From NCBI RefSeq assembly GCF_012272815.1, contig NZ_JAAWWL010000001.1, positions 700,929 to 764,928 of the forward strand: a stretch of DNA of 64,000 bases. The letters run 5' to 3'. Below the pieces are notes generated by a model. The model made no database searches. It was not told where the DNA came from and saw nothing but the letters and a program-made list of their open reading frames with translations. Origin of the DNA: Croceivirga thetidis (GTDB lineage: Bacteria > Bacteroidota > Bacteroidia > Flavobacteriales > Flavobacteriaceae). The translations under genes and the position numbers were made by a program. Positions 57,570-62,657 of this stretch are shown here, piece by piece (position 1 is the stretch's first letter; each line of letters opens with the position of its first letter).

Positions 57570-57601
57570 AAAAAACCCTGACGTTGGCGTCAGGGTTTTT
57601 T
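57570..57601. terminator. Strong bidirectional terminator
   Basis: CCCTGACG (57576-57583), loop TTGG, CGTCAGGG (57588-57595), flanked by A6 and T6 that also pair. It serves the RND operon on the + strand and the convergent YwqK-like gene on the - strand. Confidence 0.93.
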
Positions 57602-57617
57602 ATTGGTACAATTTGTA

Positions 57618-57965
57618 TTAACGAATGGCCACCACTTCAGACTGGTTCCATTTCTTCACATTGACAATTTTGTTGTTGACAAAATCAACTTCTTTCAGAA
57701 TTTCGTCCTGCCAAAAAAACCATTTTCCCGTACGCAATCCATTCTCATACTTGCCAGAGGCAATTTTCTTTCCATTTACATCGTACATCAACCATTGACC
57801 GTGTAATTTTCCCTTCATTAAATAGCCGATTTGTGCTATTTCTCCATTATCGTGAAAATATGTCGCCTTAACCATCTTACCGACTTTTTCCAAAGTAGGC
57901 TCGGTATCTTGCGGGTACATATAAACCGAGAAAACTAAAACTAATATCAATACTGCTCTTTTCAT
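57618..57965 (-). CDS. Secreted MORN-2/YwqK-like repeat protein
   Basis: 115 residues, signal peptide MKRAVLILVLVFSVYMYPQ. It contains three 20-odd-residue MORN-2 type repeats: ATYFHDNGEIAQIGYLMKGK, HGQWLMYDVNGKKIASGKYE and GLRTGKWFFWQDEILKEVDF. Databases often label these as YwqK-family antitoxin, but no toxin is nearby, and the export signal argues against an antitoxin. Function unknown. The candidate Pho-box-like region lies just upstream. Confidence 0.82.
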   Translation of the reverse strand: MKRAVLILVLVFSVYMYPQDTEPTLEKVGKMVKATYFHDNGEIAQIGYLMKGKLHGQWLMYDVNGKKIASGKYENGLRTGKWFFWQDEILKEVDFVNNKIVNVKKWNQSEVVAIR

Positions 57966-58017
57966 CTGTTAACTTATTTGGGATTTCTAATTCGTACAAG
58001 GCAAAGTTACAAAACAT

Positions 58018-58075
58018 TCTACATAATATTTACATTTACTTTACATTAATTTTACATATATTTTTTATAATATTG
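58018..58075 (+). promoter_or_regulatory. Four 11-bp-phased TTTACAT heptamers with a -7 box
   Basis: TCTACAT (58018), then TTTACAT at 58029, 58040 and 58051, each exactly 11 bases apart, then TAATATTG (58068-58075, 7 of 8 to TAnnTTTG) 10 bases after the last heptamer. This is the layout of PhoB-type activator sites. A converging minus-strand pair (GTAACAT-TAAA-TTTACAT) lies at 58120-58103. No + strand gene follows for 4.6 kb. Confidence 0.5.
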
Positions 58076-58082
58076 ATTTACA

Positions 58083-58248
58083 ACCATTTAATAATTGATT
58101 ATATGTAAATTTAATGTTACGTCGTCCGAAATTAAAAAGAATACACTGATACAAAACTTTCCGCTATCGATAAAGATCCATTTCTGTAGATAAAAAGTAA
58201 TTGCCATAAAATCAAAAAGCCCCTTCAAAATTGAAGGGGCTTTTAGGA
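58083..58248 (+). ncRNA. Possible small RNA between phased promoter and terminator
   Basis: Inferred only from layout. A promoter-like element at 58018-58075 faces right, no open frame over 11 codons follows on that strand, and a terminator hairpin with a T-run ends at 58244. The rest of the gap 57966-58269 is A/T-rich with no gene. It could instead be a silent region. Confidence 0.22.
58215..58244. terminator. Terminator of the SusCD operon (bidirectional)
   Basis: AAAAGCCCCTTCAA (58215-58228), AA loop, TTGAAGGGGCTTTT (58231-58244): a 14-bp perfect stem with T-runs on both strands, 26 bases past the SusD-like stop. Confidence 0.93.
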
Positions 58249-58269: not shown

Positions 58270-59589
58270 CTATTCGTTTTCAGATAGGGGAATTGGAAAA
58301 ACATTAAAAACTTGATCGCCTGCTCTATCAATTGGCAAGGTGCTAGAAAGACCATATCGTCTTAAATCAAACATTCGGTGATTTTCACACCACAAAGAAT
58401 ACCTTCTTTGATTCAATAGCTCTGTTGTCAGCGCATCTGCTGTCTGTGCTCCAGCATAATCGGCGAGACCAGCAGCATTTCGAATTACATTTAAGGCATC
58501 TTCCGCATCTTGAAGACTTCCGCTTAAAATACTTGCCTCTGCATAAACCAAAATCAATTCTTCATTTCGAATCATATCGATTGGCGAAACGTTGGTAGCA
58601 TACAATGCGGTTTGATTCGTGCCATTTAAACCATCTTGCGATGTCGGATTGGAACGAACGGATGTTTTTGTTGTAACCCGGGTATCACCTGCCTCAGCAT
58701 CAGCAATCCAAGAATCATGGACAATTATTTGATCCCCATTGTTATCGGTAATTTTAAACAAGCCGTTAGTGACATCACCAGAATTTAAACTAAAAACGTG
58801 TTTCGGACCAACAGTTAAGTCACCTCCAATATCGAAATACGATGCACCCAAGGCAGTCAAGGTAGCACCACCATCTCCATCATACAATGCTGCGGTGGCA
58901 GCTGTTGCCCTATTAAACTGTGCAAAGGTCGCTGGTGTGTCAAATCCTTCGAAACCAGCCAATGGAAAAGCAAATTCACTTCCTGCTCCGTTTAAATCTG
59001 AAAGGGCTTCGTCCAACAATGCCCGTATTTGTCCTAATGCAGCAGAAAAGTCCAGAACTGGCCCCAAATTATCAGGATCAGCAACATCTATTCTAGCCCT
59101 ATTGTAGGAACGTAAAACCTCAATTAATTCGTAGGCAATAATCGTTTTTGCAAAACCACGATAACCGCTTTTGTCGGCATCTGTAACCGAAGTGGTATTG
59201 TCCAACGATTGTAATAAAATATTCGCGTTTTTGATACTTCTATATCGACCACCCCATGGGGCCGTGGAATAAAACGAGTTATTGTCCAATGAGGCTCCGT
59301 TGGCACCCAACAAATCACCGGTATTTCTCGGATCAGCATCAAACAAGTATAACTCACGGGCCATCGTACCTGAACCCGTAGTCTGAATTGCAATACTATT
59401 TCGCATAGCAGATTCTACACCTACTACCAGGTTGTTCAATTGATTTTGTGAAGCATCGGTCAACACCCCTGCCAAACTAGGTCTATTTGGGTCTACCTGA
59501 TCTTCAAATTCACATGAGGTCAGCAATAGTGCTCCAAAAAACAGCAATGCCAAACCATATCTTAAGTTTTTCATCATATTCATTTTCAT
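58270..59589 (-). CDS. SusD/RagB-family nutrient-binding lipoprotein
   Basis: About 439 residues; several Met codons (59595, 59589, 59583) could start it. Lipobox LLLTSC at the signal end. The C-terminal SusD signature is IRNEELILVYAEASI, then DALNVIRNAAGL and QRRYSLWCENHRMFDLRRYG. It is a surface lipoprotein that lids the SusC-like barrel and binds the nutrient, usually a glycan or peptide. It is one gene downstream of SusC, with 9 bases between them. Confidence 0.93.
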   Translation of the reverse strand: MKMNMMKNLRYGLALLFFGALLLTSCEFEDQVDPNRPSLAGVLTDASQNQLNNLVVGVESAMRNSIAIQTTGSGTMARELYLFDADPRNTGDLLGANGASLDNNSFYSTAPWGGRYRSIKNANILLQSLDNTTSVTDADKSGYRGFAKTIIAYELIEVLRSYNRARIDVADPDNLGPVLDFSAALGQIRALLDEALSDLNGAGSEFAFPLAGFEGFDTPATFAQFNRATAATAALYDGDGGATLTALGASYFDIGGDLTVGPKHVFSLNSGDVTNGLFKITDNNGDQIIVHDSWIADAEAGDTRVTTKTSVRSNPTSQDGLNGTNQTALYATNVSPIDMIRNEELILVYAEASILSGSLQDAEDALNVIRNAAGLADYAGAQTADALTTELLNQRRYSLWCENHRMFDLRRYGLSSTLPIDRAGDQVFNVFPIPLSENE

Positions 59590-59598
59590 AACCATTTT

Positions 59599-62523
59599 TT
59601 AGAAATTAACATTTAAGTGAAAATAGAACTGTTTTGCACTCGGGAATGGAGTTACCTCAATCCCCGACGATAATCCAGCACCACCGTTCACTGAGGTTTC
59701 GGGATCATAACTGGAATAATCAGTTATCGTAAAGATGTTACGACCAGAGACACCAAGACGAATATTATCAACAGTATCTCCAAAAAAGCTCTTAACACTT
59801 TCCGGTAACGTATAATAAACCGCAGCTTCACGAAGTCTTAAATAACCCGCAGGTTCTATAAATCTTGAAGCTACAAAACCCAAGGTTGTTCTTTCTTGAC
59901 CTGCAGCTGTCTCCAAATCCGGGGTCGTTCCACCTAAATCGGTCAACAACTTAGAAAGGTTAATGTTCTCTCCACCTTTTTTCCAATGCAAAAGGAAAGA
60001 AACATCCCAATTCTTGGCAATATTGAAGCTGTTGTTAAACGAAATTTGAAAATCAGGTTCAACATCCCCGATTTGTGTAGGAACACCGTCAACGTTACCA
60101 GCCAATTGCGTAACCGGTTGACCTTCTTCAATAAAGAATGTTCCCAATCCTAAACCAAATCCAGCACCGGGCTGAGGAAATGCAGGAACATCAAGTCTTG
60201 TTACCTCTGAACGGTTCAACCAGAAACTCACGTTAGAATCCCATCTAAAATTCTCGTTTGTAAATGGGAAGACGTTTATACCTATTTCTATACCCTGGTT
60301 TTTCAAGTCGGCCAAGTTGGTGGTTTCCGAACCAAAACCGGAAGAAGCAGGTAAGGCACGACTAAGCAAAAGGTCTTTTACCTGACGGTTGTAGTAACTC
60401 ACCTCTAAATTCACCTTATTAAATAGTCCTGCATCAAAACCAACCTCAAATTCCTGAGAAGTTTCAGGCTCGACATTGGCATCACCTCTTAGCGCGTTAA
60501 TTGAAGATCCACCATTACCCCCTATAGCAACCTGATTAAGTCCGGTAAAGGCCGATCCAAACCCAGCAGAAGAACCCGTTTCACCATAGGCAGCCCTAAG
60601 CTTTAAACTGTTTAAAGTCTCTGAACCCCAATTGTTGAAATTGTGAAGGTTAACTGCCAAAGAGGCCTTGGGGAAACCGTAGAATTTATTTGGGTCTCCA
60701 TTTAAAGTCGATTTATCCAAACGATAACCAAGAGTTCCAATAAATTGGTCTTTGTAATTACCCTCCAACTGACCGAAATAACCAAACTCCTTAACTGTAA
60801 ACTCATTTTGGGTTATGGCCTGTGCAGAACCTTGAGATAAGCTTGTTTGGTTAGGAATAAGCTGAGTGGCTTGACTCAGAATCAAGTCTGCCTGTTGTTC
60901 CAAATAAGTCCAACCTGCTTGGGTCGTAAGTGCCAAATCACCGCCCATTGCATTCTTGTTCCAAACACCAATTGCTTGGTAGTTGTAGTTGGTGAAAATA
61001 TTACGCCCATCTGCAATAAATCCATTTTGGTTTCCGCGCTGAGCTTGGTGAATTTCAGGAACATAAACATCCGTTTCATTTGCTAGATAATCCAAACCAC
61101 CGTTAAAAATAAACCGTAGTCTATCCGTATCCGTAGTCAATATATTGGTCGTAATCTTTACACCCTGTATCAAACGGTTGTTCTTGTCATCATTTCTTGC
61201 CAAATCACGAACCAAAATCGGGTTACCTGGGTAATTTGGGTTGTCAGGATAGTTTCCGTTAGCATCGGGAAAAAGATTAATCCATGGTCGGGTAAAAGAT
61301 AAGGTATAGCCGTAACTCAGACCTCCTTCATTTTCGTTACCGGTAAAACTTCTTGCAGAACTACTTCTTATATAATTCGTCGATGTAGAAAAGCTGAAAG
61401 TGTTTGATATTTTATGGTCAATATTGGCTCGAAGCGAAAAACGTTCAAATCCAGTGTTTTTGATAATCCCGTCTTCATTTCGATAAGAACCACCCACATA
61501 AAAACTTGTTTTATCGTTTCCACCACTGGCACTTAACTTGGTTTCAGTGATAAAACCGGTCTCACCATAAATGATATCCTCATAATCCAACAGTCCGCCA
61601 TTGGCAACCTGTTGATTGAACAATGCTACTTCGTCAGCACCAAAAGCCGCTTCAACACTTGCAGCCGTCCAAGGACGAAGGCCCAACTTTTTGATAATCG
61701 TATTGAATCCGGTGTCTTGGCCAAACTTGATATTTGTTTTACCTTCTTTCCCTCTCTTAGTAGTAATAATAACTACACCAGCATTTGCTCGAGTACCATA
61801 AATAGCCGCGGCAGAGGCACCTTTTAAGACCTCAATGTTTTCTATGTCGTTAGGGTCTAAATCAGCGATTCTGTTTGAAGAGTTTTCCTCATTACCACGG
61901 TTTGCACCAGAGGCAAAACGCAATCCTGAGGGTACTTCAGCATTGTTAATGTATACTCCATCTACTATGTATAACGGTTGGTTATTTCCGTTAATCGAAG
62001 AAATACCTCGGAGTCGAAGGGCAAACCCCCCACCAGGAGCACCAGAAGATGATGTAATATTGACACCGGTAAGCTTACCGTATAACGCGCCATCCAAAGT
62101 ACTTTGGGTGGTCGTTCCAACCAGTTCTTGCGCAGATACGGTTGCTACGGCATTGGCTAGATTACTTCTCTTGATGGATGTTCCCAGACCCGTTACTACT
62201 ACTTCGTCCAATCCTGTTGCGGATTCTTCGAGTGAAGCATTAATGGTCCCAGAACCTGAAACTTCGAGTTCAATCGAAGAGTATCCTAGCGAAGAAAATT
62301 GGAGCGTTGCAGGAAAGCTGCCAACATCAATGGTATAATTTCCATCGAAGTCGGTAGATGTTCCATTCGTAGTGCCCTTTTCGACGACTGTCACCCCAGG
62401 CAAGGGCAGATTGTTAGCATCGGTTACGGTTCCTGAAACCGTTCCTTGCGAAAATGCCATAAAAGGCAGGACAAAGAACAGCAGCAAAAACCCACCTTTT
62501 AGCAAGTTTTGTTTCATTTTCAT
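59599..62523 (-). CDS. SusC/RagA-family TonB-linked outer membrane protein
   Basis: About 974 residues from the ATG at 62523, which opens the signal peptide (MKMKQNLLKGGFLLLFFVLP); an ATG at 62574 would add 17 residues. Order: carboxypeptidase-like domain (VSGTVTDANNLPLPGVTVVE), plug with ALYGKLTGVNITSSSGAPGG, LRLRGISSINGNNQPLYIVD, EVLKGASAAAIYGTRANAGV, and a 22-strand barrel ending KQFYFHLNVNF. It imports a large nutrient with TonB energy. No glycosidase, sulfatase or peptidase gene lies beside the pair, so the nutrient is unknown. Confidence 0.95.
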   Translation of the reverse strand: MKMKQNLLKGGFLLLFFVLPFMAFSQGTVSGTVTDANNLPLPGVTVVEKGTTNGTSTDFDGNYTIDVGSFPATLQFSSLGYSSIELEVSGSGTINASLEESATGLDEVVVTGLGTSIKRSNLANAVATVSAQELVGTTTQSTLDGALYGKLTGVNITSSSGAPGGGFALRLRGISSINGNNQPLYIVDGVYINNAEVPSGLRFASGANRGNEENSSNRIADLDPNDIENIEVLKGASAAAIYGTRANAGVVIITTKRGKEGKTNIKFGQDTGFNTIIKKLGLRPWTAASVEAAFGADEVALFNQQVANGGLLDYEDIIYGETGFITETKLSASGGNDKTSFYVGGSYRNEDGIIKNTGFERFSLRANIDHKISNTFSFSTSTNYIRSSSARSFTGNENEGGLSYGYTLSFTRPWINLFPDANGNYPDNPNYPGNPILVRDLARNDDKNNRLIQGVKITTNILTTDTDRLRFIFNGGLDYLANETDVYVPEIHQAQRGNQNGFIADGRNIFTNYNYQAIGVWNKNAMGGDLALTTQAGWTYLEQQADLILSQATQLIPNQTSLSQGSAQAITQNEFTVKEFGYFGQLEGNYKDQFIGTLGYRLDKSTLNGDPNKFYGFPKASLAVNLHNFNNWGSETLNSLKLRAAYGETGSSAGFGSAFTGLNQVAIGGNGGSSINALRGDANVEPETSQEFEVGFDAGLFNKVNLEVSYYNRQVKDLLLSRALPASSGFGSETTNLADLKNQGIEIGINVFPFTNENFRWDSNVSFWLNRSEVTRLDVPAFPQPGAGFGLGLGTFFIEEGQPVTQLAGNVDGVPTQIGDVEPDFQISFNNSFNIAKNWDVSFLLHWKKGGENINLSKLLTDLGGTTPDLETAAGQERTTLGFVASRFIEPAGYLRLREAAVYYTLPESVKSFFGDTVDNIRLGVSGRNIFTITDYSSYDPETSVNGGAGLSSGIEVTPFPSAKQFYFHLNVNF

Positions 62524-62657
62524 AAGTGTTTGTATTAGTCTTTTCACTAGAAATGTAGGAAAGATTACAGCCATATTAAAATATTTTTAAGAAAATTCCG
62601 TAAAATTTCAAACGTTTTCGTTAAGAATTATTCATATCGTATTCTTTTCGAACTGAT

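Follow-up and report, generated by a model that had tools for sequence, protein, structure and literature searches.

A conserved Pho-box-like heptamer array and its probable role as the low-phosphate promoter of a secreted MORN-repeat protein gene in Flavobacteriaceae

The stretch of DNA analysed here (the window; 64,000 nucleotides of the Croceivirga thetidis genome) carries four direct heptamers at 58018..58057, which most likely belong to the promoter of the minus-strand gene to their left and not to anything rightward. The segment 58002-58057 is likely to be a PhoB-activated promoter, used at low phosphate, that drives this gene (57965-57618), predicted to encode a secreted protein with a MORN fold. 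Computational comparison identified the array, its orientation, its spacing to the -7 box, its target and a motif shared with pst, oprP, TonB-receptor and phoB promoters.

On the plus strand the heptamers read TCTACAT (starting at 58018) and TTTACAT (58029, 58040 and 58051), and the exact 11-base steps noticed in the original prediction were confirmed. The minus-strand text is ATGTAAA-ATTA-ATGTAAA-GTAA-ATGTAAA-TATT-ATGTAGA, in which 27 of 28 positions equal the column majority across the four heptamers. When the 304-bp gap was shuffled 3000 times with dinucleotides preserved, no shuffle reached this score (best shuffle, 25), and when all periods from 8 to 14 were permitted 0/600 shuffles were as good as the array. 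Period 11 alone stands out in the 8-14 scan, scoring 27 vs ≤22 for the other periods. The exact heptamer triple occurs once in the 3.7-Mb genome; with up to three mismatches there are three genome matches, every one a register of this same array, and a control with the reversed pattern at the same tolerance gave two chance matches genome-wide. The shuffles and the genome-wide count show that the exact array is not general in A/T-rich gaps, so the random occurrence that had been named as grounds for abandoning the idea was not seen. The A/T content of the gap is very high, as would suit a functionless repeat arisen by chance, but given these counts, and a fixed spacing kept across genera, the probability of such an origin is close to nil. 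An exact heptamer pair followed by TAnnTTTG is likewise found only at this locus in the window genome. A looser scan for heptamer pairs with three mismatches returned 42 matches vs 64 in reversed controls and is therefore uninformative by itself. Similarity of the gap to relatives at the DNA level is limited to short matches in two genomes (G001 and G009), and a generic sigma-70 scan gave no excess over shuffles.

The direction of the promoter follows from a -7 box, TAACTTTG, on the minus strand at 58002..58009, which lies 8 bp beyond the last heptamer, is kept in orthologues and matches the Bacteroidota consensus TAnnTTTG perfectly. In flavobacteria the sigma-A -7 box is TAnnTTTG, located at -12 to -5 (PMC9723704). 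The predicted transcription start would then fall near 57997, 32 bases 5' of the ATG at 57965, and the array would span about -60 to -21, a stretch that takes in the usual -33 position. The original prediction had the promoter pointing rightward in a gap with no annotated target; the array instead serves the minus-strand gene beside TAACTTTG, in a geometry that is kept in orthologues. This gene (57618..57965, minus strand) is supported as an open reading frame and by its orthologues, and encodes 115 aa with a predicted signal peptide and two MORN-like repeats. Its AlphaFold model is all-beta and MORN-like (pLDDT 83.7), and among PDB folds it best matches, with modest scores, the MORN part of SET7/9 (E 4e-4) and Morn1 proteins. 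The protein itself has no match in Pfam or NCBIfam, and one orthologue (L015) lies above the cut-off for MORN_2 (PF07661; 2e-7). An inverted repeat with T tails and a 14-pair stem (57570..57601) resembles a terminator common to the MORN gene (minus strand) and a convergent RND efflux gene (plus strand).

Rightward, the array is followed by no gene sequence other than the 3' end of a SusD gene with its minus-strand terminator, a stem-loop at 58215..58244 which closes the gap. A plus-strand promoter using TAATATTG (58068-58075), with a small RNA in the gap, would fit the position of that box 10 bp past the fourth TTTACAT, the stem-loop at the right end and the fact that TonB-receptor and porin promoters do have TTAACAT-oriented heptamers with a spacer of 8 bp. 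It is nevertheless highly improbable, as the spacing is 10 and not 8, the box lacks TTTG, no Rfam family reaches its gathering score, and the first plus-strand gene is aspS, which has its own upstream region. The small RNA was considered as a candidate and found no support. The box reported 10 bases on is present where it was described, but relatives have no plus-strand promoter box there: they keep AAATCAA at this position, a minus-strand element (58073..58079 in the window) that TAATATTG overlaps and that lies 22 bp, or two turns, before the first heptamer.

Further right, the opposing pair of the original prediction, GTAACAT-TAAA-TTTACAT on the minus strand, was also recovered; read on the plus strand it is an outward-facing second pair, ATGTAAA-TTTA-ATGTTAC, at 58103..58120 (heptamers starting at 58103 and 58114). 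No TTTG box lies 8 bp beyond it. Outward-facing arrays score in 16/28 related loci (about 60%), and where aspS adjoins they are placed about 130-165 bp 5' of that gene; at these loci a separate TAAATTTG box belongs to aspS, and the outward array is not followed by a box at 8 bp. The outward pair of the window genome is separated from aspS by a SusCD operon.

Orthologues of the MORN gene were collected by protein similarity alone, without use of the motif, and were found in 10/10 relatives of the same genus as well as in many other genera. The array precedes nearly all of them, amounting to about 30 related marine flavobacteria, in the arrangement ATGTTAA-n4-ATGTTAC-n4-nnGTTnn-n4-ATGTAAA-n8-TATATTTG, or more fully ATGTTAA-TTTA-ATGTTAC-GTAA-nnGTTGn-TTnA-ATGTAAA-n8-TATATTTG. 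An alignment of 32 promoter sequences has 19 invariant columns. The spacer to the -7 box is 8 bp (7 or 9 in a few orthologues), and four loci (L024, L025, L026 and L033) fit the promoter consensus poorly. A profile of the array promoter built from sequence only, R1, scores at the MORN promoter in 28/28 independently found loci (Flagellimonas/Allomuricauda/Croceivirga/Winogradskyella), and ranks this promoter first in most genomes of the same genus and of the same family. When 60 genomes of the family were searched separately with a pattern, 25 matches in 23 of them were obtained, mostly at the MORN promoter, and one match for the control; related genomes are not independent samples.

Outside the MORN gene, the motif points to phosphate. 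In a genome with a Pst system and no MORN gene (G017), the sole R1 match among those listed (E 2.6e-8) lies directly 5' of oprP (porin)-pstS-pstC-pstA-pstB-phoU. Weaker sites in the pstS, porin or phoB/pstS gaps of four further genomes (G013, G043, G046 and G012) beat shuffles (p≤0.006). Among PstS-family loci, arrays are present at strong PstS loci only, most weak PBP matches being without one. Across 30 phoB upstream regions the pair score exceeded that of shuffles (Mann-Whitney p=3e-13, uncorrected for relatedness), with 17/30 above the 95% point of the null and some carrying weak pairs only; seven loci of other response regulators in the window genome gave no pair score. Classical Pho genes (pst, oprP and phoB) are accordingly preceded by the same motif as the MORN gene, as is typical of a Pho box. 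The degenerate profile does find the phosphate neighbours that had been expected, both in relatives and at phoB of the window genome itself. A literal search for TTTACAT triples near pstS or phoU, which had been suggested as a check, cannot succeed in this genome because the triple is unique to the MORN promoter locus and no PstS or PstC was found.

The window genome encodes a PhoB (G000:C1:1430350-1431033) with PhoR as the next gene, and a divergent TonB receptor adjoins the pair; a Pit-type transporter is also present. This PhoB shares 63% identity with the PhoB adjoining pstS in G046, and PhoB is its best family, yet it falls under the curated equivalog cut-offs (217 vs 296 bits; 212 vs 270). 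The gap between phoB and the TonB receptor contains heptamer pairs, which on the receptor side read TTAACAC-GTAACAT-TTTACAG, followed after 8 bases by TTTCTTTG, and are kept in the genus. At porin and TonB-receptor promoters the heptamers point the other way (TTAACAT) but keep the same 8-bp distance to a box ending in TTTG, and orientation may therefore matter less than distance. Genes found near MORN in other genera are, among others, those for Porin_O_P, PHO4/Pit and TonB receptors; G035 has phoB, phoR and MORN in a row. A second MORN gene, a paralogue, adjoins the Pit phosphate transporter in the window genome (G000:C1:785090-785500; L181) and has an upstream array matched by R1 (E 1.2e-4). 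Separately, a conserved stretch resembling GTCGACAAAAACTAATA is present just past the -7 box of porin genes, perhaps as a conserved 5' leader element; it was seen upstream of porin or MORN genes at L016, L018, L021, L022, L030, L171 and L179.

The regulator that binds the array is most likely PhoB. A different OmpR-family regulator, responding to envelope or osmotic stress (RprY- or CpxR-like, for example), with the overlap with phosphate genes incidental, is improbable. Direct repeats of 11 bp do serve further OmpR-family proteins, among the proteins of the window genome four, PhoB included, matched as full-length OmpR-type regulators, and R1 sites also occur near DinB/rsmG and rpe, genes without a phosphate role. 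Against this, oprP-pst and phoB/TonB-receptor promoters have the strongest motif, the other response regulators of this genome that were tested lack it upstream, and phoB-phoR adjoin the MORN gene in G035. The part of the original prediction that proposed an OmpR/PhoB-type phosphate promoter is therefore very probably right, the same motif being found at pst, oprP and phoB promoters.

With PhoB as the regulator, we infer that PhoB binds the array and activates the promoter, and that it does so in response to low phosphate. Under low phosphate PhoR would phosphorylate PhoB, and two PhoB dimers, head to tail, would occupy the four ATGTWAA heptamers on one helix face, in keeping with the 11-bp period. 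Once bound, PhoB would bring sigma-A RNA polymerase to a promoter that has no -33 box of its own, and could stand in for that box because the array covers its position and ends 8 bp before TAACTTTG. The output would be a small exported MORN-repeat protein. As the same array precedes the MORN gene in about 30 flavobacteria, this protein is probably a previously unlisted member of the phosphate-starvation response; a literature search on flavobacterial phosphate responses found no paper naming the gene.

Pho boxes consist of 7-nt direct repeats with 4 loose bases, forming 11-nt units, with a consensus that depends on the species (PMC4415409), and E. coli PhoB sites overlap the -35 region (PMC3348028). 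The array at 58018..58057 contains at least two such units and covers the -33 region, equivalent to -35, beside the core -7 box, equivalent to -10. It resembles the E. coli Pho box in its 7 conserved and 4 loose bases, its several head-to-tail units over the -35/-33 region and a heptamer that runs toward the promoter as nTGTnAn. It differs in its consensus, ATGTWAA where E. coli has CTGTCAT, in the TAnnTTTG located 8 bp downstream and in its MORN target; the missing CTGTCAT is no defining failure because the Pho-box consensus differs among species (PMC4415409).

Also comparable are F. johnsoniae and B. fragilis. The F. johnsoniae phoBR locus / PUSIV (PhoB, TonB receptor and lipoprotein FII) is described as induced by Pi depletion (PMC8115612). 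The phoB/receptor layout of the window genome is that of this locus, with phoB-phoR beside a TonB receptor, and F. johnsoniae has OprP and lipoprotein neighbours; the main text of that paper, as covered by a term search, contains no operator motif and no MORN gene (PMC8115612). PhoB of B. fragilis is described as binding the pst promoter (pstC) by EMSA and controlling pst and a permease, and the searched text of that report gives no consensus (PMC3547664). No published PhoB operator for Flavobacteriaceae was found, though PhoB regulons are known from expression data.

The PhoP box of B. subtilis has TTAACA-type repeats with an 11-bp period. The hexamer is near-identical on the other strand (TTAACA/TTTACA) and the period is equal, but the repeats of the MORN promoter run the opposite way relative to the gene; it is the flavobacterial porin and TonB-receptor promoters that have the TTAACAT orientation.

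Of 60 genomes, 29 have a strong MORN orthologue and 6 have PstC, and none has both (Fisher p=0.015), a separation that shared ancestry could cause. Tentatively, PhoB may in flavobacteria lacking Pst drive the exported MORN protein as part of an alternative phosphate-uptake route (porin/TonB receptor plus Pit), with arrays working in either orientation if 8 bp separate the final heptamer from the -7 box. The comparison provides a testable Pho-box consensus for Flavobacteriaceae, namely ATGTWAA in 11-bp steps, 8 bp before TAnnTTTG, and if it is confirmed flavobacterial Pho regulons could be read straight from genomes by motif. A second gain is a secreted protein, conserved and uncharacterised, that can be added to the likely response to phosphate starvation in common marine bacteria, of which many lack Pst.

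MORN and aspS are direct divergent neighbours in most same-genus genomes, and the SusC/SusD pair that lies between them in the window (58270-62574) is therefore probably an insertion in this lineage; such a pair is also present between the two genes in G009 / Croceivirga lutea. A second conserved array, ATGTAAATTTAACGTTAATTAATTGT, lies close to DinB-family and rsmG genes and was seen in five genomes, the window genome included (G000:C1:58890-58930; L173:2091-2129), with the other loci being L162, L163, L164 and L170. In some genomes this array lies 3' of DinB and no target is evident, which may mean that a small gene there has escaped annotation. Several same-genus genomes also have R1 matches between a gene for a lysine-rich histone-H1-like small protein and rpe (ribulose-phosphate 3-epimerase), at L148, L152, L153 and L168.
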